The translations under genes and the position numbers were made by a program. A stretch of DNA of 36,180 nucleotides. Source: Bacteroidota bacterium. GTDB lineage: Bacteria; Bacteroidota; Ignavibacteria; UBA10030; BY39. Of this stretch, positions 22,822-36,180 are shown in pieces. The notes beneath the pieces are model-generated. The model was not told the origin of the DNA. It saw only the letters and a program-made list of their open reading frames with translations, and ran no database searches. The stretch is taken from assembly GCA_030017895.1 (NCBI GenBank), contig JASEGV010000029.1, positions 1 through 36,180 on the forward strand. Direction: 5' to 3'. Position 1 is the first letter of the stretch. Every line of letters begins with the position of its first letter.

Positions 22822-24204
22822 ATGTCTATCTTAATTAAAAACGGTCGTGTTGTTACTGCTTCGGAAAATTTTCTTGCCGATGTATTTATCGAGGACGAGA
22901 AGATTACGAAAATCGGTACTAATCTAAATCTCTCAGCTGCCACAGTAATTAACGCAACGAATAAGTATGTAATCCCTGGTGGTATAGATGTTCACACACA
23001 CATCGATATGCCGTATGGCGATATAAAATCGACAGACGATTTTGAAACTGGAACCATTGCCGCTGTCTTTGGCGGAACAACGACGATCATAGATTTCGCA
23101 GTTCAATCTAAAGGACAATCGCTTTTAGAAGCATTAAATATCTGGAAACAAAAAGCAAGCGGTAAAGCTCTTATCGATTATGGCTTTCACATCATCATAA
23201 CAGATGTGAACGAAAAAATTCTCGCTGAACTTGATGAAGTTGTTACCGAAGGTGTTACAAGTTTTAAATTGTTCACAGCGTATCCCGGCAGATTGATGCT
23301 GAATGATTCAGAAATATTCAGAGTAATGCAGCGAGCGAAGAACAACGGTGCTTTGATAATGATGCACGCAGAGAGTGGTTACGTAATAGACAGTTTAATT
23401 CAACAAGCCCTCGCTCAAGGAAACACTGATCCGATTTATCACGCTCTTACTCGTCCCCCTGCGCTTGAAGGCGAAGCTACAAACCGAACCATCGCACTTG
23501 CAAAAGTTGCCGATGTGCCGGTCTATATTGTGCACGTAACGTGTAGCGAAGCTATTGATGCTATCAAGAAGGCACGAGCGCAAGGACAAAAAGTATTCGG
23601 TGAAACTTGTCCGCATTACTTATTGCTTAGCGAGGATGATTTAAGAAAACCTAACTTTGAAGGTGCGAAATATGTTCTTTCGCCGCCGTTGCGCGAACAC
23701 AAACATCAGCGGATACTTTGGGATTCGCTTAGTGATAATATTTTACAAACAATTGCAACTGACCACTGCCCCTTTAACTTCAAGAAACACAAAGAGTTAG
23801 GGCGGAATGATTTTACAAAAATACCAAACGGTGCACCCGGAATCGAGAACCGACTACAACTAATGTTTGAATACGGTGTTAAACAAAACAGAATCTCTAT
23901 AAACAGATGGGTGGAATTAGTATCAACAAATCCTGCAAAAATATTCGGAATGTATCCGCAGAAGGGAGCGATTGCTGTCGGCAGCGATGCCGATATTGTA
24001 ATCTGGAATCCTAACACTGAACACACAATCTCAGCACAAACTCATCACATGCGTGTCGATTACAATATGTTTGAAGGTTTCAGAGTTAAAGGCAACACCG
24101 AAACAGTTATCTCAAGAGGTGAAGTGATAATCGAAAAAGAAAAATTTCTCGGTAAGCCGGGCCGAGGAAGGTTTATTAAACGCAATCCGTTTGGTAGCTT
24201 ATAG
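22822..24204 (+). CDS. hydA: Dihydropyrimidinase / hydantoinase
   Basis: Zinc amidohydrolase that opens cyclic diamides such as dihydrouracil or hydantoins to N-carbamoyl amino acids. The 460-residue protein has the metal motif GGIDVHTHID (His58, His60), the probably carboxylated Lys149 in TSFKLFTAYPG, MMHAESG, IVHVTCSEA and the metal Asp in ATDHCPF. The YPG following the Lys and the DFETGTIAAVFGGTTTIIDF segment point to dihydropyrimidinase/hydantoinase rather than allantoinase or dihydroorotase. ATG 22822 has no Shine-Dalgarno, in line with the short leader expected from the promoter directly upstream. It is the first gene of a same-strand cluster with a molybdenum hydroxylase and carbamoyltransferase genes, so its substrate is probably an oxidized heterocycle. 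Confidence 0.92.
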   Translation: MSILIKNGRVVTASENFLADVFIEDEKITKIGTNLNLSAATVINATNKYVIPGGIDVHTHIDMPYGDIKSTDDFETGTIAAVFGGTTTIIDFAVQSKGQSLLEALNIWKQKASGKALIDYGFHIIITDVNEKILAELDEVVTEGVTSFKLFTAYPGRLMLNDSEIFRVMQRAKNNGALIMMHAESGYVIDSLIQQALAQGNTDPIYHALTRPPALEGEATNRTIALAKVADVPVYIVHVTCSEAIDAIKKARAQGQKVFGETCPHYLLLSEDDLRKPNFEGAKYVLSPPLREHKHQRILWDSLSDNILQTIATDHCPFNFKKHKELGRNDFTKIPNGAPGIENRLQLMFEYGVKQNRISINRWVELVSTNPAKIFGMYPQKGAIAVGSDADIVIWNPNTEHTISAQTHHMRVDYNMFEGFRVKGNTETVISRGEVIIEKEKFLGKPGRGRFIKRNPFGSL

Positions 24205-24230
24205 CATGTGGAATTACTTATTTGAAATCC

Positions 24231-24268
24231 AACTCATCCCCCCACCAGGATTTGATAGGGGATGAGTT
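24231..24268 (+). repeat. 11-bp perfect hairpin between hydantoinase and CoA-transferase genes
   Basis: AACTCATCCCC (24231-24241) is the exact inverse complement of GGGGATGAGTT (24258-24268), with a 16-base loop. No U-run follows on either strand, so it is not a standard intrinsic terminator. It may stabilize an mRNA end, attenuate partially, or be a dispersed repeat. Confidence 0.5.
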
Positions 24269-24296
24269 CGAAATATGAAAAGATCAAAATAAATCC

Positions 24297-24323
24297 AAAA
24301 TCTAAAATCTAAAATCTAAAATC
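24297..24323 (+). repeat. Tandem heptamer AAAATCT, 3.9 copies, before a start codon
   Basis: Three full copies of AAAATCT and a fourth lacking its last base run from 24297 to 24323, five bases upstream of the CoA-transferase ATG at 24329. The tract occupies the place of the ribosome binding site and leader, and no Shine-Dalgarno is present there. Tandem repeats of this size can change copy number by slippage, which would shift spacing without altering any protein. Confidence 0.8.
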
Positions 24324-24328
24324 CCAAT

Positions 24329-25516
24329 ATGTCTCTACCATTATCCAAAATCCGTGTTCTTGATTTTACAAGAATCTTATCCGGTCCTTATTGCACAATG
24401 AAGTTAGGCGATATGGGGGCTGAAATTATTAAAATAGAAGCGCGCGGTTCGGGCGACGATACCCGCTACTGGGCTCCGCCTTATGTCGGCGATGAGAGCG
24501 TTTACTTTTTGAGTGTCAACAGAAACAAACAAAGTATTACACTCGACCTGAAATCTAAGGAAGGCAAAGAAATCGTTAAGAAGCTTATTCGGAAGAGCGA
24601 TATAGTTGTAGAGAATTTCCGGGCCGGTGTAATGGAGAAATTGGGATTCGATTTTAAGTCGGTTAAAAAGCTAAACCCTAAAATTATTTACTGCTCAATT
24701 TCCGGTTACGGACAAACAAGCGAGCAAAGCAATCAACCGAGTTTCGATTTGGTTGTTCAGGGAGAATCCGGTTTTATGGATATAACAGGATTTCCGGACG
24801 GCAGTCCGACAAAAGCAGGAGTTTCACTTGCTGACATTGCAGCAGGACATGCAGCGTTTGAAGGAATACTACTCGCATTGTACCAAAGGCAAAACACCGG
24901 GAAAGGGCAATGCATTGATATTAGTTTGTTGGACAGTTTGATCTCAATGTTTACGTTTCAATCACAGATTGCGTTATCAACAGAGATAACACCTAAACGA
25001 AAAGGAAATTTGCATCCGACAATAACTCCTTACGAAACATTCGAGACGAAGGACGGTTACATAAACATAGCAGCGGGTAACGAAGGGCTTTGGAAAAATT
25101 TCTGCAAAGCGATAAACCGGACTGACTTGTTAACTGTCGAAAAATTTATTGTTAACCCAAAGAGGGTTGAAAATCGAGTAGAGTTACAGAAGGAATTGAT
25201 ACCAATTCTAAAGCAGAAAACAAGCGATGAATGGTTCAAAATTTTTGCTGAATATGATGTGCCCGTTGGAAAAATTAACACGGTGAAGGAAGCTCTAAAC
25301 TTACCAACTGTAATCGGCAGGGAAATGGTAATAGAGTTAAATCACTCAACAGTTGGTAAGATGAAGACGGTAGGAAACCCCATAAAGCTTAGCAGCGTAA
25401 AGAGTTATAATTATAAACCTGCCCCCACATTAGGTGAACATAGTGATAAAATATTAAAACAAATTGGTTATTCAAAAAAAGAAATCGAAAAATTAAAATC
25501 ACAGAAAGTTGTTTAG
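24329..25516 (+). CDS. Class III CoA-transferase (CaiB/BaiF/Frc family)
   Basis: Moves CoA between carboxylic acids through an aspartyl-CoA thioester. The 395-residue protein has the family start LSKIRVLDFTRILSGPYCTMKLGDMGAEIIKIE, then VNRNKQSITLDLKSKEG, and the nucleophile Asp140 in QPSFDLVVQGESGFM. Length and motif order match formyl-CoA:oxalate CoA-transferase-like enzymes, but this family takes many acids (oxalate, carnitine, succinate derivatives, arylacetates), so the substrate is open. It starts with ATG after a heptamer repeat and lies 124 bases after hydA and 88 before the FAD subunit gene. In the cluster it could activate the acid left after heterocycle breakdown, for example oxalate; this is an inference. 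Confidence 0.88.
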   Translation: MSLPLSKIRVLDFTRILSGPYCTMKLGDMGAEIIKIEARGSGDDTRYWAPPYVGDESVYFLSVNRNKQSITLDLKSKEGKEIVKKLIRKSDIVVENFRAGVMEKLGFDFKSVKKLNPKIIYCSISGYGQTSEQSNQPSFDLVVQGESGFMDITGFPDGSPTKAGVSLADIAAGHAAFEGILLALYQRQNTGKGQCIDISLLDSLISMFTFQSQIALSTEITPKRKGNLHPTITPYETFETKDGYINIAAGNEGLWKNFCKAINRTDLLTVEKFIVNPKRVENRVELQKELIPILKQKTSDEWFKIFAEYDVPVGKINTVKEALNLPTVIGREMVIELNHSTVGKMKTVGNPIKLSSVKSYNYKPAPTLGEHSDKILKQIGYSKKEIEKLKSQKVV

Positions 25517-25542
25517 GGAACAAAATCAGATATTATCTTCAG

Positions 25543-25573
25543 TTGTTTTAGATACCGAAGTTTTGTAATTTTA
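25543..25573 (+). promoter_or_regulatory. Candidate internal promoter before the molybdenum hydroxylase genes
   Basis: TTG at 25543-25545 (in GTTG), 20 bases, then TAATTTTA at 25566-25573: the same geometry as the hydantoinase promoter. It lies 32 bases before the FAD-subunit start and may give the hydroxylase-AllFGH part its own transcript. Confidence 0.42.
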
Positions 25574-25604
25574 CACACATTTTTAATAAAAACAAGGTTC
25601 AAAA

Positions 25605-26435
25605 TTGCTATATAGTTTTTCATATTATAAACCGAAATCCGAAATTGAAATTATTGAGACTTTAAAATCTTTTGGAGACGATGCCAAAATATTAGCCGGC
25701 GGAACTGATTTGTTAGTTTATATGAAGCAACAAATTGCAGATCCGAAAGTATTGGTCGACATTAAAGGTGTACCTGATTTTTCTAAAATTGAGATCGACA
25801 GTTCAGGCAATCTCATTATCGGGGCTGCTGTAACTTGCAACGACGTAGTAGAGAATCAATACATCCGAAATCATTATCCGATATTAGCGACTGCTGCAAA
25901 AACAATCGGGTCGTATCAAATTCGCAATCGCGCAACAGTTGTCGGAAATATTTGTAATGCCTCGCCCGCGGCTGATATGGCGGGTGCACTTCTCGTCTTG
26001 GATTCATCAGTTATTATTGCAACCGAAAAAGGAAACCGCGAAATCCCCATCAAACAATTTTTTGTTGGTGTTAAAAAAACATCGCTGCAACAAAATGAAT
26101 TCGTGAAAGCAATCAGAGTGCGTGCTGAATACAAAGATGCCGAAGCAGGTTACTTAAAAGCAAGCCGCATCAAAGGGCACGACCTTGGTACTTGCAACGT
26201 AGCCCTTAGTCGCGGCAAAAATGGAACAGTCAAAATTGCAATTGGCTCGTGCAACATTACACCGGTTTTGCTCCCCGATTTCGACAGCACAAATATTGAT
26301 TTGGCAAACATATTAACGACAGCGATGAAAAATATAAAGCCGATCGATGATTTAAGAGGTTCAAAAGAATATCGAAAACATCTCGTCCAAGTTTTTATCA
26401 AACGATTATTAAACGGAAAGGGACATAGCCATTAA
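25605..26435 (+). CDS. Molybdenum hydroxylase, FAD-binding subunit (XdhB/CoxM type)
   Basis: Medium subunit of a xanthine-dehydrogenase-family enzyme; passes electrons from the 2Fe-2S clusters to its FAD and on to the acceptor. The 276-residue protein has FSYYKPKSEIEIIETL, the FAD-phosphate motif AKILAGGTDLLVYMKQ, and the second FAD motif GSYQIRNRATVVGNICNASPAADM. The start is TTG 25605, supported by AAGG at 25594-25597 with seven-base spacing; no ATG fits near the conserved N-terminus. It has the short C-terminal domain typical of three-subunit enzymes. Its TAA (26433-26435) overlaps the probable ATT start of the iron-sulfur subunit. Confidence 0.92.
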   Translation: MLYSFSYYKPKSEIEIIETLKSFGDDAKILAGGTDLLVYMKQQIADPKVLVDIKGVPDFSKIEIDSSGNLIIGAAVTCNDVVENQYIRNHYPILATAAKTIGSYQIRNRATVVGNICNASPAADMAGALLVLDSSVIIATEKGNREIPIKQFFVGVKKTSLQQNEFVKAIRVRAEYKDAEAGYLKASRIKGHDLGTCNVALSRGKNGTVKIAIGSCNITPVLLPDFDSTNIDLANILTTAMKNIKPIDDLRGSKEYRKHLVQVFIKRLLNGKGHSH

Positions 26436-26910
26436 GACGATAGCAGTAACAATCAATGATAGAAAATACAGTAAAAGTGTTTCAGAAAATAGAACATTAT
26501 TAGAATTTCTTCGCGAGGATTTATATTTATTAGGTGTAAAAGAAGGATGCGGAGAAGGCGAGTGCGGCGCTTGCACAGTTCTAATGAATGGAAAAACGGT
26601 AAACTCCTGCTTGGTTTTAGCAGTTGAAGCCGACAGAACAGTGATTCGCACAATCGAGGGAGAATCGAAGGACGGGAAATTAAATCCACTCCAGGAATCT
26701 TTTAAAAAACATCACGCTACGCAATGCGGATTTTGCACTCCGGGTGTTATAATGTCTGCAACATCACTTTTAGAACGGAATCAAAACCCGGCTGAAGCGG
26801 AAATCAAAGAAGCGATTGAAGGAAACTTTTGCAGATGCACCGGTTACCGGCAAATTATTGATGCTATAGCTGAAGCCGCAACGCTTCTTGAGAGCGAGGT
26901 AAAAAAATGA
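26431..26910 (+). CDS. Molybdenum hydroxylase, [2Fe-2S] subunit, probable AUU start
   Basis: Small subunit carrying two 2Fe-2S clusters. Read from ATT 26431 it has 159 residues, the normal size, starting KTIAVTINDRKYSKSVSEN. The plant-type cluster ligands are Cys40, Cys45, Cys48 and Cys60 (GCGEGECGACTV ... NSC), and the second cluster has Cys99, Cys102, Cys134 and Cys136 (QCGFC ... FCRCTGYRQ). From the in-frame stop at 26410 to the first ATG at 26584 the frame has no ATG, GTG or TTG. That ATG lies after three essential Cys, so it cannot be the functional start. ATT 26431 sits seven bases after GGAAAGGGA and overlaps the previous stop (ATTAA). A sequencing error changing ATG to ATT is the main alternative. 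Confidence 0.85.
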   Translation: MKTIAVTINDRKYSKSVSENRTLLEFLREDLYLLGVKEGCGEGECGACTVLMNGKTVNSCLVLAVEADRTVIRTIEGESKDGKLNPLQESFKKHHATQCGFCTPGVIMSATSLLERNQNPAEAEIKEAIEGNFCRCTGYRQIIDAIAEAATLLESEVKK

Positions 26911-29276
26911 GTTCGAAAAAAGAATTTAAATATATCGGGAAAGGTGTTCCCCGGATTGATGCGGATGAAAAAGTAACCGGACAAGCACGCTATGTTTCTG
27001 ATATTTCGATGCCCGGGATGCTTCATGCAAAAATGTTAACATCATCAGTGGCTCACGCAAAAATAAAAAAGATTGATACATCGAAAGCGAAAGCGTTGGA
27101 TGGCGTGGTTGCAGTTCTTACTGGTGAAGAGTTAGATTATAATGTGGGATTGTATCTTGTAGATAAACGGATTCTTGCCCGCGACAAAGTCCGTTATCAA
27201 GGCGAACCGGTTGCTGCGGTTGCAGCCGAAACTTTAGAAATAGCAGAAAAAGCCATCAAGTTAATCGAGGTGGAATATGAACTATTCAAACCACTCCTCG
27301 ATGTTGAAGAATCGTTTAATGAAAAAGAAAATTTAATTCATCCTGATTTAGGAAATTACAGCCATTTAAAAGCAGCCTTCTTTCCGCAACCCGGAACTAA
27401 CATCTGCCACGTTTCAAAAATCCGTAAGGGTGATATTGAAAAAGGTTTTGCAGAAGCTGATGTTGTAGTAGAGCGTGAATACAATAATCCTTCGGTTCAA
27501 CATGTTCCCATGGAAACTCACGGCGCAATTGTTCAGTGGGGTGTTAGCGATAAAGTAATGATTTATACAAGTGCACAATCGCCGTTCACCGTCCGAAATC
27601 TTTTTTGCTATACTTTTAAACTGCCGCATCAAAAAGTTCGCGTAGTAGTTCCGTACGTAGGCGGCGGCTTTGGCGGCAAAGCAGGAATACATTTCGAGCC
27701 GTTAGTCGGATGTCTTTCGCGTGCAGCGGGGGGCAGACCTGTAAAGTTGATTGCCACAAGAGAAGAAGAATACAATACACTTCCGTGTCGCTGCGGACTT
27801 AAATTTAAAATCAAAACAGGTTTGAAGAAAGACGGAAAAATTACAGCACAGAAATTAGTCCTGCTTTGGAGCGCCGGCGCTTATGCCGATTACGCTGTGA
27901 ATGTTACGCGGGCTTCGGGATATTCTGCCGGCGGTCCCTACTATTACGAAAATCTTTACACTGATTCATACACAGTTTATACAAATCAGGTTTTCGGAAC
28001 TGCCTATCGTGGTTTCGGGCACGTCGAATTATTTTGGGGTTTAGAACGCCACATGGATTTCTGTGCCGGTAAACTTGGCATCGACCCGTACGAGTTCAAA
28101 AAAATAAATTTACTCCGCCCTGATAACACAACTGCTACCGGAGAAATTGTAACCGATTCATCGGGCAGTGTACGCAAATGTTTGGATGCTGTTGTTAAAG
28201 AGATTGGTTGGAACGGTATTAAAACGAAACAGGAAAGAGACCAAGAAATTAAAACCGGAAAAGTTCGCGGAAAAGGATTTGCAGTTTTACACAAAGCCCC
28301 CGCGATGCCTTCAAATACATCAAGTTCATGTATAATTAAGATGAACGAGAATGGTTCGGTAATTTTAAATGTGTCCGCAACTGATTACGGCAATGGAACT
28401 TACACGCCATTAACTCAAATTATAGCAGAGGAAATGGATATTCCTTTATCGAAAATACATGTAGCATTTGAAACCGATACCGACCGGGACCCATACGATT
28501 GGCAGACAGTCGCTTCTCGCTTTATGCCGATGGGAGGCAGAGCTGTTATTAATGCTTGTAATGAATTGAAGAAAAAGATGTCTGAAGTTGCAGCAAAAGT
28601 TTTTGAGTGTTCGCAGGATGATTTTATTTTTGGAGATGAAAAAATAATTCTTAAAAATAATACAGATAAATTTATTCAATACGAAAAATTAGCAACCGGC
28701 TATGTCTTCCCGAATGGTAACGCAATTGGCGGTCCGCTGATTGGAGTTGGAGTTTACATCGCTGAAGGTTTGACGAATCTTGATAAAGAAACTGGACAGG
28801 GTTTGCCGGCTTTCAATTGGACTTTCGGCGCTCACGGTGTTGAAGTGGAAGTCGATGTTGAGACGGGCGAATTCACTGTTTTGAAAATTGCTTCTGCACT
28901 GGATGTCGGAAAGGTGATGAACGAAGCTTCGTTGAAAGGACAACTTATCGGCGGTGTTGTTCAAGGTTTAGGTACTGCAATTTGCGAGAGATACGTTTAC
29001 AGCAACGACGGACGCTTATTAAACAAATCTTTTACTGACAATAAAATACCCACAGCGAAAGATATTCCAAATGTCTTTGTTCCGATTTTTATTGAAACTC
29101 CACACGATAAAGGAGCTTACGGTTCACGGGGAGCCGCAGAACATCCGATGATCTCTGTCGCGCCGGCTATCGGTAACGCTTTGAATGACGCTTTAGGAAT
29201 TGAACTCACTGAAATGCCGATTCGCTCCGAAGATGTTTGGTTGGCATTAAATAAAGAGAAGGCTCTTGTTGGTTAA
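26907..29276 (+). CDS. Molybdenum hydroxylase, molybdopterin-binding large subunit (xanthine dehydrogenase family)
   Basis: Catalytic subunit that hydroxylates a heterocycle or aldehyde at the Mo centre with water as oxygen donor. The 789-residue protein begins with the aldehyde-oxidase-type domain (KGVPRIDADEKVTGQARYVSDI). It has VPYVGGGFGGKAG, the substrate-side TAYRGFGHVE, and near the C-terminus RGAAEHPMISVAPAIGNA with Glu745 at the place of the essential active-site Glu. RGFG resembles purine-type enzymes rather than the carbon monoxide dehydrogenases, whose selenium/copper Cys loop is absent. The exact substrate is not determined. ATG overlaps the stop of the iron-sulfur gene by four bases, and the stop overlaps the allH-like gene, so all are probably one translational unit. 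Confidence 0.92.
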   Translation: MSSKKEFKYIGKGVPRIDADEKVTGQARYVSDISMPGMLHAKMLTSSVAHAKIKKIDTSKAKALDGVVAVLTGEELDYNVGLYLVDKRILARDKVRYQGEPVAAVAAETLEIAEKAIKLIEVEYELFKPLLDVEESFNEKENLIHPDLGNYSHLKAAFFPQPGTNICHVSKIRKGDIEKGFAEADVVVEREYNNPSVQHVPMETHGAIVQWGVSDKVMIYTSAQSPFTVRNLFCYTFKLPHQKVRVVVPYVGGGFGGKAGIHFEPLVGCLSRAAGGRPVKLIATREEEYNTLPCRCGLKFKIKTGLKKDGKITAQKLVLLWSAGAYADYAVNVTRASGYSAGGPYYYENLYTDSYTVYTNQVFGTAYRGFGHVELFWGLERHMDFCAGKLGIDPYEFKKINLLRPDNTTATGEIVTDSSGSVRKCLDAVVKEIGWNGIKTKQERDQEIKTGKVRGKGFAVLHKAPAMPSNTSSSCIIKMNENGSVILNVSATDYGNGTYTPLTQIIAEEMDIPLSKIHVAFETDTDRDPYDWQTVASRFMPMGGRAVINACNELKKKMSEVAAKVFECSQDDFIFGDEKIILKNNTDKFIQYEKLATGYVFPNGNAIGGPLIGVGVYIAEGLTNLDKETGQGLPAFNWTFGAHGVEVEVDVETGEFTVLKIASALDVGKVMNEASLKGQLIGGVVQGLGTAICERYVYSNDGRLLNKSFTDNKIPTAKDIPNVFVPIFIETPHDKGAYGSRGAAEHPMISVAPAIGNALNDALGIELTEMPIRSEDVWLALNKEKALVG

Positions 29277-30147
29277 TAATCAAATAGAAATAACTTCATA
29301 TTTAAATTCAATTCTTTCGAAAACCAATAATAGATTCTTTAACATACATTCTGTTTTTAATAAAACTGTAAATTTTTATGACGGAGAAATTTTATTAACT
29401 TTTACTTCGCCCGGTGTGCAGCTTTCACCAACGAATATCGTTATCAACGAGAGTTGGTTGTTTAATTCGGTTCATAATTTGTCACAAAATTCCGTCTGTG
29501 AATTAAATTATCCGTTATTGAGTTTCAATTCCGCCTACGACCGATTTAGTGTGTCGCTTGAAACGTGCTATGTTGTGAAGACTGAAATCGAAACACACCA
29601 TAAACTTTCGGAAAAAGATATTGAACTATTCAAGTCGAACGTTTTCAAAGTAATCGATAATCGTAACAGCATACTGAATATTTTTAATAATCATCCAACA
29701 GAAGATCCTTTGATGGAGAGGTTTAGAATTATCACACTCTCAATTCAGAAAAGCATAACTGCAAACGACTCAACTAATTTACGGAAGGAAGTGACGAAAC
29801 TTCTCGGGCTCGGAACAGGATTGACTCCTGCAGGCGATGATTTCTTGTATGGACTTTTAGCGGTCTGGAAAACTTTGGGCGGGAGAGAAAATTTTGTAGT
29901 AGAATTAGAAACATTAATAATTGAAAATAAAAATGAAATAGGAATAATCAGTTACAATATGTTAAATGCACTTATTAAAAATCATATCTACCTTCCGCTT
30001 AAATATTTGTTTCGACAAATCAACAGCGGGAAGGAATATACGAGGGAACTATCAGAGATTGCAACGTTCGGTTCATCTTCAGGGGCAGATATGATTGCAG
30101 GTCTATTGTTCGGATTAGAAAATCAGGGATATAAAATTGAAGCATAA
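29269..30147 (+). CDS. allH: DUF2877 protein, AllH (YlbF)-like oxamate carbamoyltransferase subunit
   Basis: In E. coli, AllF (FdrA), AllG (YlbE) and AllH (YlbF) together form the oxamate carbamoyltransferase of anaerobic allantoin use, which phosphorolyses oxalurate to oxamate and carbamoyl phosphate. This roughly 292-residue protein shows the DUF2877 core TKLLGLGTGLTPAGDDFLYGLLAVW and a C-terminal FGSSSGADMIAGLLFGL. It stands directly beside AllF- and AllG-like genes, which supports the assignment. The start is either TTG 29266 or TTG 29269; AAGG ending at 29262 favours 29269 (six-base spacing). It overlaps the large-subunit stop and in turn overlaps the allF-like start by 11 bases. The acceptor substrate here may differ from oxamate. 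Confidence 0.8.
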   Translation: MVNNQIEITSYLNSILSKTNNRFFNIHSVFNKTVNFYDGEILLTFTSPGVQLSPTNIVINESWLFNSVHNLSQNSVCELNYPLLSFNSAYDRFSVSLETCYVVKTEIETHHKLSEKDIELFKSNVFKVIDNRNSILNIFNNHPTEDPLMERFRIITLSIQKSITANDSTNLRKEVTKLLGLGTGLTPAGDDFLYGLLAVWKTLGGRENFVVELETLIIENKNEIGIISYNMLNALIKNHIYLPLKYLFRQINSGKEYTRELSEIATFGSSSGADMIAGLLFGLENQGYKIEA

Positions 30148-31702
30148 AATTATAATCAAAAAAAATTCTTACTACGATTCAATCAGCTTGATGCAATTGT
30201 CTGATAAAGCAAAGTTGTTGCCAAACGTTCTTGATGCTGTGATATCAATGGGCACCGAGACGAATAAAAATTTTTTGAAAGAAATAAATTTGTTCGACCA
30301 GCAGTTGGACGCAGCGGGACCGAACGATTTAGTAATAGCAATTCGGATTCAAGACGAACAAGCACTTGAGAGTGTCTCGGAGTTAATCGAAAAATTATTA
30401 AATTCAAAAGAATCTTCTGAACAAAAATCAACTGATGATAAACCGGTTTCGTTTGATTACACACTGCGAAAAAATCCGGATGCGAATATAGTGCTGGTAT
30501 CAATTCCGGGTGAATATGCTTATTACGAGTCGAAAAAGGGGCTTATTGCTGATAAACACGTGATGATTTTCAGCGATAATGTTAGTATCGAACAGGAAAT
30601 TCAACTAAAAGAGATGGCAGTTTCAAAAGGTTTGCTGCTGATGGGACCTGATTGCGGAACAGCGATAATAAATGGAGTACCGCTGGCTTTTGCAAACGTT
30701 GTTCCAGAAGGTCCGATTGGAATCGTCGGAGCTTCCGGAACTGGCAGTCAACAAGTTAGCAGTTTAATCGCAAGGATGGGTTCGGGAATTACACAACTTA
30801 TCGGAACTGGCGGTAGAGATTTATCGGAAGCTGGCGGCGGAAAAATGATGCTGCTTGGAATGAAAGCGTTGAATGAAGATCCAAAAACAAAAGTAATAGT
30901 GTTGCTATCGAAACCGCCCGCAGAAGTTGTGATGGAAAAAGTTTTAACGTCAGCATCTAAATGCACCAAGCCGGTTGTTGTTTGTTTTTTAAGTGGAAGA
31001 AAAGATGTAATTGAAAAATATAAATTAATCGCTGCCGATAATCTTGAAGAGGCAGCAACAAAAGCTGTTCAGCTTGCAACAGATAAAACCATCAACGTAT
31101 CGATTCCTGAAGACGAATTATCTGCCACAGGCGGATTAGCCGAAATTGAAACAGCGAAAATGAATTCAAACCAAAAATACATACGTGGTTTGTATGCCGG
31201 CGGAACGCTTTGCGATGAATCCATAATTTATCTTCGTAAAATATTCGGAACGATTTATTCCAACACAACAATCGACACTGAGAGAAAACTTGCAGACAGC
31301 CGGATTTCGGTGATGGATACAATTATCGACCTCGGTGATGACGAATTTACAAAAGGCAAAGCTCATCCGATGATTGACCCGTCGTACAGAAAATTGCGTT
31401 TGCTAAACGAAGCAAAAGATTTTGAAGTTGCTGTTATTTTGCTGGATATAGTTTTAGGATACGGTTCTCACGAAGACCCAGCCGGTGCGATGCTTGAAAG
31501 TATAAAACAAGCAAAAGCAGAATTTGAAAATCGAGGCGGTTACCTTTCGGTGGTTGCTTCAGTTTGCGGAACTGAAGAAGACCCGCAAGTATTATCCGCA
31601 CAAGAAGCAAAACTTAAACAAGTTGGTGTAATCTGTATGCCGAGTAATTTTCAGGCAGTTAAGTTAGCGGCAAAGATCAAGGAAATAGTTTTAAAAAAAT
31701 AA
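30137..31702 (+). CDS. allF: FdrA/AllF family protein, carbamoyltransferase subunit
   Basis: FdrA proteins have a succinyl-CoA-synthetase-alpha-like build and form part of the oxamate carbamoyltransferase with AllG and AllH. The 521-residue sequence shows the FdrA N-terminus KKNSYYDSISLMQLSDKA, then LMGPDCGTAIINGVPLAFANV and the nucleotide/CoA-type loop GPIGIVGASGTGSQQVSSLI. GTGGRDLSEAGGGKM follows, and the second domain has IRGLYAGGTLCDES and GKAHPMIDPSYR. The order and length match the family (E. coli FdrA is about 555 residues). The start is TTG 30137, with AGGGA at 30125-30129 seven bases upstream. It lies between AllH-like and AllG-like genes with overlap or near-zero spacing, as expected for a complex. 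Confidence 0.88.
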   Translation: MKHKIIIKKNSYYDSISLMQLSDKAKLLPNVLDAVISMGTETNKNFLKEINLFDQQLDAAGPNDLVIAIRIQDEQALESVSELIEKLLNSKESSEQKSTDDKPVSFDYTLRKNPDANIVLVSIPGEYAYYESKKGLIADKHVMIFSDNVSIEQEIQLKEMAVSKGLLLMGPDCGTAIINGVPLAFANVVPEGPIGIVGASGTGSQQVSSLIARMGSGITQLIGTGGRDLSEAGGGKMMLLGMKALNEDPKTKVIVLLSKPPAEVVMEKVLTSASKCTKPVVVCFLSGRKDVIEKYKLIAADNLEEAATKAVQLATDKTINVSIPEDELSATGGLAEIETAKMNSNQKYIRGLYAGGTLCDESIIYLRKIFGTIYSNTTIDTERKLADSRISVMDTIIDLGDDEFTKGKAHPMIDPSYRKLRLLNEAKDFEVAVILLDIVLGYGSHEDPAGAMLESIKQAKAEFENRGGYLSVVASVCGTEEDPQVLSAQEAKLKQVGVICMPSNFQAVKLAAKIKEIVLKK

Positions 31703-31707
31703 AAATA

Positions 31708-33108
31708 ATGTTACAAAAAATTAAAGAATTATTCTCAAATAATATATCTGTAATAAATCTGGGAATCGAGTCATTCTCTACCGATTTACAATCGCAGAAT
31801 GTAAAATCGATACACGTTCGATGGAAACCGCCGGCATCAGGAAATCAGGAGCTGATAAATCTATTATCGGCACTTTATACTGATGAAGTAGAATCTGCAA
31901 ACCTTAAAGTTCTTGAAATTATAGCAAACGGTCATCCGAAACTTATTGGGTTAGGAATTGCTAAAGAAGTGATTCCAAATTTTACTGAGAAAACAATTTT
32001 GCATGCCGGCCCACCGGTAACTTGGAAAAATATGTGCGGACCTATGCGCGGCGCCGTGATTGGGGGTTTGATATACGAAGGTTTAGCCAAAGAGGTTAAT
32101 GATGCAGAAAAGATTGCATCGACTGAAATTACATTTTCACCCTGCCATCATTTCCGTACAGTCGGGCCGATGGCAGGAATTGTTACCGCCTCAATGCCGG
32201 TTTGGATTGTAAAGAACGATGCTTATGGAAATTTTGCTTATGCAACGATGAACGAAGGACTTGGAAAAGTTCTGAGATTCGGGGCTTACGGTGCAGAAGT
32301 TATCCAACGACTCAACTGGATGCGAGATGAATTGTATCCAATTTTAAAACAGTCATTAGACATAAAGGGTGAAATAGATTTGCGAATATTAATTTCACAA
32401 GCCCTTCAGATGGGAGATGAATGTCATAACCGGAACAAAGCATTCACATCACTTTTCCTTCGCGAAATCGCTCCAGCAATTGCACGGACTGATTTTTCAA
32501 ACGAACAAAAGGCAAAAGTTCTTGAATTCATACATACGAACGACCATTTCGGCTTAAATCTATCCATGCCCGCGAGCAAATCTATTATGGAAGCGGCTGA
32601 GGGGATCGAAAATTCTACTATTGTTACAACGATGGCACGCAATGGAACTGAATTCGGAATTCGTGTTGCCGGATCAAAAGGCAAATGGTTTACTGCTAAA
32701 TCGCCAAAAGTGCGAGGATTATATTTCCCCGGTTACACAGAAAACGATGCTGCGCTTGACCTTGGCGATTCGGTGATTACCGAGACGACAGGAATCGGCG
32801 GGTTTGCTATGGCTTGTGCACCAGCGATTGTTGGTTTCGTCGGTGGCAAAGCTTCGGATGCTCTTGATTATTCAGAACAAATGTATCAAATAACATTATC
32901 GGAGAGTAAACATTTTCAAATTCCTGCTTTGAATTTTCGAGGAACAGCTACGGGCATCGACATACGCAAGGTAATCGAAACCGGAATCTTACCGATAATT
33001 AACACAGGCATTGCTCACAAAAACGCGGGTGTCGGGCAAGTCGGTGCCGGACTTGTTAATCCTCCAATGGAGTGTTTCGAAAAAGCATTACAAAATTTTA
33101 AAAAATAA
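31708..33108 (+). CDS. allG: DUF1116 protein, AllG (YlbE)-like carbamoyltransferase subunit
   Basis: A 466-residue DUF1116 protein, the third partner of the AllFGH carbamoyltransferase in E. coli. Diagnostic stretches are VRWKPPASGNQELI, AGPPVTWKNMCGPMRGAVIGG, FSPCHHFRTVGPMAGIVTAS, ATMNEGLGKVLRFGAYGAEV, MARNGTEFGIRV and a C-terminal INTGIAHKNAGVGQVGAG. Several conserved His, Cys and Arg (CHHFR) could form the active site. It starts at ATG 31708, five bases after the allF-like stop, and is followed after 29 bases by the cyclase-family gene. No carbamate kinase (arcC), the usual next step from carbamoyl phosphate, is in the window. Confidence 0.88.
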   Translation: MLQKIKELFSNNISVINLGIESFSTDLQSQNVKSIHVRWKPPASGNQELINLLSALYTDEVESANLKVLEIIANGHPKLIGLGIAKEVIPNFTEKTILHAGPPVTWKNMCGPMRGAVIGGLIYEGLAKEVNDAEKIASTEITFSPCHHFRTVGPMAGIVTASMPVWIVKNDAYGNFAYATMNEGLGKVLRFGAYGAEVIQRLNWMRDELYPILKQSLDIKGEIDLRILISQALQMGDECHNRNKAFTSLFLREIAPAIARTDFSNEQKAKVLEFIHTNDHFGLNLSMPASKSIMEAAEGIENSTIVTTMARNGTEFGIRVAGSKGKWFTAKSPKVRGLYFPGYTENDAALDLGDSVITETTGIGGFAMACAPAIVGFVGGKASDALDYSEQMYQITLSESKHFQIPALNFRGTATGIDIRKVIETGILPIINTGIAHKNAGVGQVGAGLVNPPMECFEKALQNFKK

Positions 33109-33137
33109 AAAACCTAAAACGAACTAAAGGAAACAAA

Positions 33138-33917
33138 ATGAAAATAATTGATTTAACACAACGACTATCAATATTAACACCGGCTTGGCCCACTTATGAG
33201 CCATTGAAAGTTCATTTCTTTAAACGACTTTCATCTAACGGTGCGAACGGACAAATCATCAGCACAAGTAATCACATCGGAACGCACATGGATGGCGAAA
33301 TCCATTTTCACACTGCCGGCAGAACTATCGGTAATCAGCCGATTGAGGACTTTGTCGGTGCCGGGGTAGTCGTTGACATTTCCGACATAATGGGAGATTA
33401 CGATATTTACACATCGAAGATGCTGATGGAGCGGGCTGATATTCGCAAAGGCGATATCTTGATCATAAATACAGGCTACCATAAATATTCGTGGGACCAG
33501 CCAGAAGCAAACGAGATACGATATTTCTGTAAACATCCTGGTCCTGCAAGCGAGTTTGTTGAGTGGTGCGAAAAAATGCAATTCAAATGGATTGGTGTTG
33601 ACTGCGGAAGCGCCGACCATCCGATGAATACGATTATCAGAAAATGGTCGGAAGATTTATACGGATTAGCTACTGAAGCTTCGGAACACATGAAGAAAAA
33701 ATATGGTAAAACCCTTGAAGAACTTTTTCCGAAAAAAGATTATCAGCAGATGCACTTTAAACTTTTTCCTAAAAAAATAATTCATGCCGAAAATGTTGGA
33801 GGCGATATTAATAAATTATCCAATCAAAGAACTCACATCGGTGCGTTTCCGTGGCGGGCAATTGAACTCGAATCCTGCATCTGCCGGATCGTGGCTTTCC
33901 CGGATATAAAAGAATAA
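33138..33917 (+). CDS. Cyclase-family (KynB/isatin-hydrolase-like) metal-dependent hydrolase
   Basis: Members hydrolyse cyclic or formyl amides (kynurenine formamidase KynB, isatin hydrolase) or related substrates with Mn or Zn. The 259-residue protein has the metal motif His46-x-Gly-Thr-His50-x-Asp52 followed by His56 (HIGTHMDGEIHF). The usual Pro of the HxGTHxDxPxH pattern is replaced by Glu54. Further matches are IKGDILIINTGYHKY and the Asp/His-containing WIGVDCGSADHPMN. AAAGGAAAC before ATG 33138 is a clear ribosome site. Its place between the carbamoyltransferase genes and the amidase suggests hydrolysis of an amide or lactam intermediate; the substrate is not known. Confidence 0.87.
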   Translation: MKIIDLTQRLSILTPAWPTYEPLKVHFFKRLSSNGANGQIISTSNHIGTHMDGEIHFHTAGRTIGNQPIEDFVGAGVVVDISDIMGDYDIYTSKMLMERADIRKGDILIINTGYHKYSWDQPEANEIRYFCKHPGPASEFVEWCEKMQFKWIGVDCGSADHPMNTIIRKWSEDLYGLATEASEHMKKKYGKTLEELFPKKDYQQMHFKLFPKKIIHAENVGGDINKLSNQRTHIGAFPWRAIELESCICRIVAFPDIKE

Positions 33918-33922
33918 AATCA

Positions 33923-35287
33923 TTGGTCGAAAATATTTCTACAAAAAGTTTTGTTGCCGAACCTGAAACTAATTCTCTGAAACGAATTACCGGAAAGATT
34001 CGTAACGGTGAGCTATCTTTAAAATCATACATCGCACAGATTCGAAAAAGATTTGAACTTGTTGAACCGCACATCAAAGCTTTTCTTGATGAGCCAAATC
34101 GTTTCGAAAGATTGCACCGAGAAGCCAAACAACTTGAAGCGCAATATGATAAGAAGAATAAACTTCCACTACTGTATGGGATTCCCGTCGGTATAAAAGA
34201 TTTATTTAATGTGGATGGATTCGAGACTAAAGCCGGAAGTAATTTACCGTCAGATATTTTTAAAGCGCCCGAAGGACAAGCTGTAAAAGCGATCAAGTCC
34301 GCCGGTGCTTTAATTTTAGGAAAAACTGTAACAACTGAGTTTGCATATTTTACACCGGGGCCAACTTGCAATCCGCATAACCTCAATCATACACCGGGTG
34401 GTTCATCGAGCGGCTCTGCTGCTGCTGTTGCATCAGGACTAACGCCGTTTGCGTTGGGAACACAAACAATCGGTTCGATAATCCGGCCGGCAGCTTTTTG
34501 CGGAATTGTCGGCTTCAAGCCAAGCCAAAACCGCATTGCTACAAACGGAATTGTGCCGTTTTCACCAAATATTGACCAAATTGGCTTCTTTACTTCTGAT
34601 GTTGAAAGTGCTGAACTTGCCGCTTCGGTGCTGTGCGAAAAATGGAGCGCACTACAAGAAACGAATGAAGTTAATCCTGCTTTTTCAAAAAAACGTTCAG
34701 CAGGTACGTTGTGTGTTCCCGAAGGAGTGTATCTTCAAAAATCTCAACCGGAAGCATTGGCACATTTTGAAAAAGCTGTAGAAAGATTGAAAAATATCGG
34801 ATTCGAAATTATTCGAATAGATATGATGAAAAATTTTGAAGCAATAGTGCATAACCATAACACATTGATAGCAGCAGAAGCGGCAATTGTTCATAAAAAT
34901 TGGTTTGAAAAATATTCGCATCTGTATAATCCGAAAACTATCGAGTTGATATTAAAAGGACGAAGTGTAAATGAAAACGAGATAGGAGATTGTAAAAACA
35001 GTCGCACACTTTTTCGTTCAGAGCTAATTGAGATGATGGTGCGGCACCAGCTTACTGCTTTCATTACACCTTCGACGGTTGGTCATGCACCGCACGGATT
35101 GGATTCCACAGGTGATCCGATTATGAATTTGCCGTGGACGTTTTCAGGATTGCCTGCGATAAATTTACCAGTTGGTAAGTTTGCAAACGGACTTCCATTC
35201 GGCTTGCAGGTAGTAGGAAATTATTGGAAAGATGAAGAGTTGTTGAAAATTGCATCTGTAATTGAAAGCAGTTTGCGAGATTCATAG
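33923..35287 (+). CDS. Amidase signature family hydrolase
   Basis: Ser-cisSer-Lys amidase that releases ammonia from a carboxamide. In the 454-residue protein the catalytic Lys is K92 (GIPVGIKDLFNV). The Gly/Ser-rich signature GGSSSGSAAAVASGL carries the cis-Ser (about S161), and the nucleophile is S185 in GTQTIGSIIRPAAFCG. Spacing follows the family. GatA is unlikely, since no gatB or gatC is adjacent and the cluster is catabolic. The start is TTG 33923, five bases after the cyclase-family stop, with no good Shine-Dalgarno, so translation may depend on coupling. In the cluster it could cleave the amide left after carbamoyl removal, for example oxamate to oxalate; this is an inference. Confidence 0.9.
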   Translation: MVENISTKSFVAEPETNSLKRITGKIRNGELSLKSYIAQIRKRFELVEPHIKAFLDEPNRFERLHREAKQLEAQYDKKNKLPLLYGIPVGIKDLFNVDGFETKAGSNLPSDIFKAPEGQAVKAIKSAGALILGKTVTTEFAYFTPGPTCNPHNLNHTPGGSSSGSAAAVASGLTPFALGTQTIGSIIRPAAFCGIVGFKPSQNRIATNGIVPFSPNIDQIGFFTSDVESAELAASVLCEKWSALQETNEVNPAFSKKRSAGTLCVPEGVYLQKSQPEALAHFEKAVERLKNIGFEIIRIDMMKNFEAIVHNHNTLIAAEAAIVHKNWFEKYSHLYNPKTIELILKGRSVNENEIGDCKNSRTLFRSELIEMMVRHQLTAFITPSTVGHAPHGLDSTGDPIMNLPWTFSGLPAINLPVGKFANGLPFGLQVVGNYWKDEELLKIASVIESSLRDS

Positions 35288-36155: not shown

Positions 36156-36180
36156 GTTTAGTGTTATAGATTTTATCGTC

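Follow-up and report, generated by a model that had tools for sequence, protein, structure and literature searches.

A molybdenum hydroxylase, cyclase and AllFGH-type gene set in Ignavibacteria is a candidate energy-conserving pathway of oxidative pyrimidine catabolism

Introduction

Contig JASEGV010000029.1 of an Ignavibacteria bacterium, a complete contig of 36180 bp within a 3.2-Mb genome in 176 contigs (hereafter the window, in which the reading ends at 36180), carries ten genes on the + strand at 22822-35287, encoding a hydantoinase, a coenzyme A (CoA)-transferase, a three-subunit molybdenum (Mo) hydroxylase, three subunits of an AllFGH-type transcarbamoylase, a PF04199 cyclase and an amidase. 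We consider it slightly better than an even chance, with a probability of roughly 0.53, that these genes form a route of oxidative pyrimidine breakdown that runs without oxygen and conserves the energy of the ureido bond, its substrate most likely being uracil. An original prediction, made from the letters of the window, had described ten same-strand genes of these families, and their coordinates and strand were confirmed, and the family assignments were confirmed by Pfam and NCBIfam profile scores far above chance. It had further proposed cyclic-ureide catabolism through Mo hydroxylation, ring opening, carbamoyl transfer, amide hydrolysis and CoA activation, a putative outline that the conserved gene set supports.

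In the proposed route, whose substrates and order of steps are predicted from sequence, the Mo hydroxylase would place a water-derived oxygen onto C6 of uracil, or of a close pyrimidine, to form barbiturate, and hydrolysis of barbiturate by the PF04199 cyclase would give ureidomalonate (3-oxo-3-ureidopropanoate), an acylurea with one carbon more than oxalurate. Transfer of the carbamoyl group to phosphate by the AllF/AllG/AllH-type complex would then yield malonamate and carbamoyl phosphate; the amidase would convert malonamate to malonate and ammonia, the class III CoA-transferase would convert malonate to malonyl-CoA, and a carbamate kinase encoded elsewhere in the genome would use carbamoyl phosphate to make ATP, with release of CO2 and ammonia. 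Barbiturate and 3-oxo-3-ureidopropanoate are given as intermediates of the oxidative pyrimidine route to malonate and urea in the available portion of PMC3758960. The open-access literature yielded no paper that connects AllFGH to barbiturate, uracil or malonamate, a search that covered few subscription papers, and such a paper may exist; PMC11448449 gave no match to the cluster gene names.

Results

The Mo hydroxylase, cyclase and AllFGH core recurs across bacteria

To place the operon among its relatives, an AllG-alignment scan of 84,980 species genomes was made, which returned at least 575 relatives; the closest 80 of these, four relatives and the window gave 85 loci, many of them cut by contig ends, in which tblastn (E 1e-12, 40% coverage) decided which genes counted as present. 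The cyclase was present in 67 loci, the Mo catalytic subunit in 41, an NCS2 permease in 30, a PucR-type regulator in 27, carbamate kinase in 23, thiolase in 21, the CoA-transferase in 15, AtzD and biuret hydrolase in 5 each and hydantoinase in 4. All 41 loci with the Mo catalytic subunit also contained the cyclase, and the Mo subunit never occurred without it. The Mo-cyclase-AllFGH core is widespread, recurring in many unrelated bacteria, and cultured carriers include Clostridium rhizosphaerae, C. thailandense and Acididesulfobacillus acetoxydans.

The complete ten-gene set, in identical order, was found in two related Ignavibacteria genomes, G001 (L009/L015) and G002 (L010/L016), which answers whether the set exists beyond the window. 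Nearer by, AllG was present in 7/60 genomes when relatives were searched (a count that includes the genome of the window) and in 3/395 genomes drawn across the phylum. Four other relatives (L011-L014) contained the AllH, FdrA, AllG, cyclase and Mo genes, but with GNAT-like, thiolase-like and zinc-ribbon proteins standing where the CoA-transferase, amidase and hydantoinase would be. This module was mutually exclusive with the CoA-transferase, the thiolase module being found in none of the 15 CoA-transferase loci, all of which contained an amidase of either the amidase-signature or the nitrilase type (a search with one of these families also picks up the other), while the zinc-ribbon and GNAT partners accompanied the thiolase in 21/21 loci.

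The PF04199 cyclase, rather than the hydantoinase, is the constant partner and the proposed ring opener

The PF04199 cyclase (33138..33917, +; Cyclase profile 113 bits), proposed here as a barbiturase-like metal-dependent ring opener, contained the H-x-G-T-H-x-D-x-x-x-H motif and exceeded the Pfam gathering score. Its predicted model (mean predicted local distance difference test score, pLDDT, 79) most closely resembled Mn-dependent hydrolases, isatin hydrolase and kynurenine formamidase. The cyclase was 54-67% identical to 22 of 23 relatives across several phyla and 91% identical to that of G002 (L016), and the former range suggests one shared substrate. AtzD (PF09663) had no match among the scanned window genes, the rest of the genome not having been searched for PF09663. 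The orthologous cyclase was missing from the 5 AtzD loci and from the biuret hydrolase loci, among which only L074 contained a distant copy (26%).

The D-hydantoinase/dihydropyrimidinase (22822..24204, +; TIGR02033 651.7 bits versus a cut-off of 393.25) is the sole copy over the cut-off in the genome, and its closest PDB chains were dihydropyrimidinase/D-hydantoinase. It had been taken as the ring opener in the original prediction. In the comparison, hydantoinase occurred in only 4/85 loci, one of these on the opposite strand, with the cyclase being the constant partner; we propose the hydantoinase as an accessory ring-opening hydrolase. That all three Ignavibacteria with the ten-gene set have it in the operon would fit another imide or lactam (hydantoin, a dihydropyrimidine or a succinimide-type compound) that the hydantoinase opens, with the amidase and CoA-transferase handling the half-amide and AllFGH acting on an N-carbamoyl acid, and both the resemblance of the CoA-transferase to dicarboxylate enzymes and the lack of a base permease in this genome agree with such a substrate. 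We nevertheless regard it as unlikely, given that the Mo-cyclase-AllFGH core lacks hydantoinase in nearly all other Mo loci and that cyclase identity across phyla points to a common substrate. A dihydropyrimidine dehydrogenase feeding the hydantoinase was also set aside; the best PreA-like protein scored 198 bits versus a cut-off of 335 and lies beside SsnA and xanthine dehydrogenase (XDH) genes.

The Mo hydroxylase differs in active-site signature from xanthine dehydrogenase-type enzymes, and the permeases of its loci lie mostly on the UraA/RutG side

The Mo hydroxylase comprises a flavin adenine dinucleotide (FAD) subunit (25605..26435, +; PF00941 and PF03450; FAD_binding_5 174 bits), a [2Fe-2S] subunit (26431..26910, +; Fer2_2 114 bits, with the Fer2 half in frame upstream) and a catalytic subunit (26907..29276, +; PF01315, PF02738 and PF20256; MoCoBD_1/2 245/262 bits), the last being proposed as a uracil-type pyrimidine hydroxylase. 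GGGFGGKAG-like, RGFG and GARG-like motifs are common to all the Mo subunits that were compared, the last being GSRG in the window, with small variants in L024, L036, L043, L055 and L063, and these motifs differ from those of three comparators, E. coli XdhA, E. coli XdhD and the second Mo enzyme of this genome. The window subunit has Ala at the position after GGGFGGK, where XDH has Glu, and stayed below the curated XDH models (best 515.8 bits versus a cut-off of 780). We take the motif positions to correspond to Glu802 and Arg880 of bovine XDH.

The second Mo enzyme, which is XDH-like, is encoded on another contig (C27; L116:2079-12955) together with two SsnA proteins, an 858-aa PreT/PreA-like protein and a threonine-synthase-like protein, and purine oxidation therefore probably has its own genes in this genome. 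An XDH identity of the operon enzyme was rejected on its active-site signature and on this separate cluster. For uracil dehydrogenase, which converts uracil to barbiturate, no gene was found in the open-access literature listings searched.

NCS2 permeases were assigned by a tree with seven E. coli transporters and by best hit. The permeases fell on the UraA/RutG side in 18/20 permease loci with Mo genes versus 3/10 without (Fisher p 0.0017, with no kinship correction), those of L027, L047, L053 and L078 grouping with E. coli UraA in a clade of strong support, and the gene-order table placed the permease mostly directly after the Mo subunit.

These observations also bear on a purine substrate, whereby the Mo enzyme would act on xanthine or urate, the cyclase would open the pyrimidine ring of xanthine and AllFGH would release carbamoyl phosphate from a ureido-imidazole. 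The Mo subunit does belong to the XDH superfamily, PucR-type regulators occur in 27/85 loci, and the permeases of two Mo loci lie on the xanthine/urate side. However, the Ala in place of the XDH Glu, the separate XDH/SsnA cluster and the predominance of UraA/RutG permeases in Mo loci render a purine route rather improbable. To our knowledge, the clostridial purine route also has no place for an ending with an amidase and a CoA-transferase.

The AllFGH-type complex is accompanied by carbamate kinase

All three subunits of the complex are encoded together in the window: AllH (DUF2877; 29266..30147, +; PF11392 67.7 bits), FdrA/AllF (30137..31702, +; PRK06091 505 bits versus a cut-off of 433) and AllG (DUF1116; 31708..33108, +; PF06545 325 bits), the only AllG copy in the genome. 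The window AllG is 53% identical to E. coli YahG and 47% to E. coli AllG/YlbE, and the window FdrA is 46% identical to E. coli YahF and 38% to E. coli FdrA. In the part of PMC11326118 available, E. coli AllFGH is a proven transcarbamylase with oxalurate and oxamate as substrates.

Carbamate kinase scored over the cut-off in 33 of the 37 Mo-locus genomes versus 2 of 14 controls, and the remaining four had sub-cut-off matches, the strongest close to the cut-off and the weakest a fragment of 36 positions. In this genome the kinase, which had been sought outside the window, was indeed found on another contig (C51), between the ornithine and aspartate carbamoyltransferase genes and not in the operon. 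Such recurrence, including 23/85 loci that themselves contain the kinase, argues against the older annotation of FdrA/AllG/AllH as a ligase, whether acyl-CoA-forming or of another kind. FdrA contains CoA-ligase and CoA-binding domains, and identities of only 38% for FdrA and 47% for AllG to the proven E. coli subunits leave room for a different activity, but the E. coli complex is a transcarbamylase despite having the same domains (PMC11326118, available part), and we judge a ligase very improbable.

In the AllG tree, cyanurate-type loci formed a separate supported clade, which fits AllFGH complexes differing in their acylurea substrate. Eight loci (L061, L065, L069, L072, L073, L074, L081 and L082) have AllFGH beside AtzD and/or biuret hydrolase with no Mo genes, mostly with carbamate kinase, and have the look of pathways for cyanurate or biuret in which carbamoyl phosphate serves to conserve energy.

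The amidase and CoA-transferase point to malonamate and malonyl-CoA

The amidase-signature enzyme (33923..35287, +; PF01425 254 bits), a proposed malonamate amidohydrolase, had malonamidase E2 as its best PDB match (170.8 bits), followed by GatA (162.2 bits), and shares the GTQTxGSxxRPAA motif with malonamidase E2. The stretch GTQTxxSxxRPAAxC was found in 7/7 members of the window-type amidase family, and malonamidase E2 was likewise the best solved match of the L085 amidase. The class III (CaiB/Frc-type) CoA-transferase (24329..25516, +; PF02515, CoA_transf_3, 432 bits), a proposed malonate CoA-transferase, was closest in the PDB to succinate--hydroxymethylglutarate CoA-transferase, a dicarboxylate enzyme. 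Malonamidase E2 as the nearest amidase relative, taken together with the mostly UraA/RutG-type permeases, points to malonamate and malonyl-CoA.

The original prediction had instead put forward oxalurate, oxamate, oxalate and oxalyl-CoA in succession as one consistent reading, with carbamoyl phosphate released alongside oxamate; we weighed it for a five-membered cyclic ureide such as hydantoin or parabanate as the start. This ending draws on the oxalurate/oxamate activity of E. coli AllFGH (PMC11326118, in the part available), on the class III CoA-transferases that use oxalate (YfdE and formyl-CoA transferase were among the PDB matches) and on the hydantoinase in the operon. Oxalyl-CoA decarboxylase, however, was absent from this genome, outside the window as well as in it, and exceeded the cut-off in 0/14 other CoA-transferase genomes, seven of which had weak sub-cut-off matches; the best CoA-transferase match is an enzyme of longer-chain dicarboxylates, the amidase is nearest to malonamidase E2, the permeases are mostly UraA/RutG-like and AllG is closer to YahG than to E. 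coli AllG. With the decarboxylase over the cut-off in 0/15 genomes, we rejected oxalyl-CoA as the leading ending and consider it distinctly improbable.

Operon structure, flanking genes and variant loci

From the FAD subunit gene through the amidase gene, intergenic gaps ranged from -11 to +29 bp, and the hydantoinase and CoA-transferase genes lie upstream on the same strand, with gaps of 124 and 88 bp. A non-canonical ATT at 26431 starts the [2Fe-2S] gene and shares bases with the TAA stop of the FAD gene (ATTAA, window 26431-26436); L015 and L016 have this ATT start as well (around 4572 and 4768), which makes three genomes in all. Gene callers restricted to ATG/GTG/TTG starts lose the Fer2 half, and standard callers truncate the protein; a 108-aa open reading frame (ORF) was rejected as the [2Fe-2S] gene, the Fer2 half being encoded in frame upstream of it. 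In G001, the same-genus relative, the FdrA frame looks split into two ORFs (L015 8300-10000), through either assembly error or decay.

The operon is flanked by a trp/aro operon, uvrA, radical SAM and ferritin genes, and downstream by a deoxynucleoside kinase gene, which adjoins the operon in the same-genus relative but was not found in the other-genus locus and was therefore left out of the set. Promoter and terminator scans gave 39 promoter-like signals versus 37.4 by chance and 9 terminator-like signals versus 12.8 by chance.

Among the variant loci, a trio of GNAT-like, thiolase-like and zinc-ribbon (ChsH2-type) genes replaces the CoA-transferase and amidase in L011-L014, L018, L019, L027, L041, L046, L049, L051, L057, L066, L078 and L086, and the u230 protein of this module has a predicted GNAT-like fold. 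Five gut Firmicutes loci (L020, L026, L033, L037 and L038) contain AllFGH, cyclase, NCS2 permease and carbamate kinase genes, with no Mo hydroxylase in the fetched stretch, together with amidohydrolase or 8-oxoguanine-deaminase-like and nitroreductase-like genes.

Discussion

Several points weigh against uracil oxidation to malonyl-CoA. The Mo signature is not proof of uracil as the substrate; the known barbiturase is of the AtzD type, the same family as cyanuric acid hydrolase, and we know of no PF04199 barbiturase. The hydantoinase appears as a lineage accessory without a needed step in the proposed route, and several CoA-transferase loci carry a different amidase family, the one compared (L023) being nearest to peptide amidase. 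On the side of uptake, two Mo loci (L028 and L071) have xanthine/urate-side permeases, and an uptake gene sought outside the window did not turn up, neither NCS2 nor NCS1 permeases being found in this genome, which leaves uracil uptake unexplained here. A link between AllG and NCS2 sought across 60 relatives was not found, NCS2 being present in 1/7 AllG carriers and 7/53 others. Finally, the loci were those whose AllG was closest to that of the window, and kinship among them does not enter the p values.

More broadly, the loci may reflect a widespread ATP-yielding anoxic pyrimidine pathway, with a new uracil-oxidising Mo family, PF04199 as a second barbiturase family unrelated to the first and AllFGH complexes as general acylurea phosphorolases, their acylureas being oxalurate, ureidomalonate and, in cyanurate clusters, allophanate or biuret, with the bond saved for carbamate kinase; we put this generalisation just short of an even bet. 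If true, it would provide candidate genes for the long-known uracil-to-barbiturate enzyme, which has no sequence as far as the literature searched shows, add a second barbiturase family, extend the range of the AllFGH enzyme, itself a recent assignment, beyond oxalurate to acylureas as a class, and explain a possible ATP gain from nucleobases by anaerobes of several phyla. Every step of the proposed route is open to direct single-enzyme assay.

Compared with known systems, the window resembles E. coli AllFGH and AllK of the allantoin pathway in its three homologous subunits and in the expected carbamate kinase, but allC, allD, allE and allK were not found among the scanned window genes, the order is H-F-G, the kinase lies outside the operon, and a Mo hydroxylase and a PF04199 cyclase accompany the subunits in place of the allC/allD/allE context. 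The closest E. coli homologues are those of yahEFG, which shares the DUF2877-FdrA-DUF1116 order. By contrast, yahEFG-yahI-yahJ (L101:5926-12508), an uncharacterised AllFGH paralogue with carbamate-kinase-like and amidohydrolase genes, lacks a Mo hydroxylase, cyclase, amidase and CoA-transferase. The biuH/allFGHK clusters of nitrifiers (PMC12625717) likewise place AllFGH and carbamate kinase beside urea compounds derived from rings, as proposed here, but in a biuret/triuret context, and the available part of that paper reports no Mo hydroxylase or cyclase.

The window amidase has the catalytic-region motif of malonamidase E2, although the match is modest (171 bits) and malonamate activity is predicted from the sequence. 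With the E. coli Rut pathway, the operon shares proposed uracil catabolism and, in many relatives, an NCS2 permease, but no catabolic enzyme. The Rut pathway begins with a monooxygenase that needs O2. With the oxidative pyrimidine pathway, the proposed route has barbiturate and ureidomalonate as intermediates and malonate as the end product in common, but the proposed ring opener belongs to PF04199 rather than AtzD, and carbamoyl phosphate, instead of urea, would carry off the ureido group.

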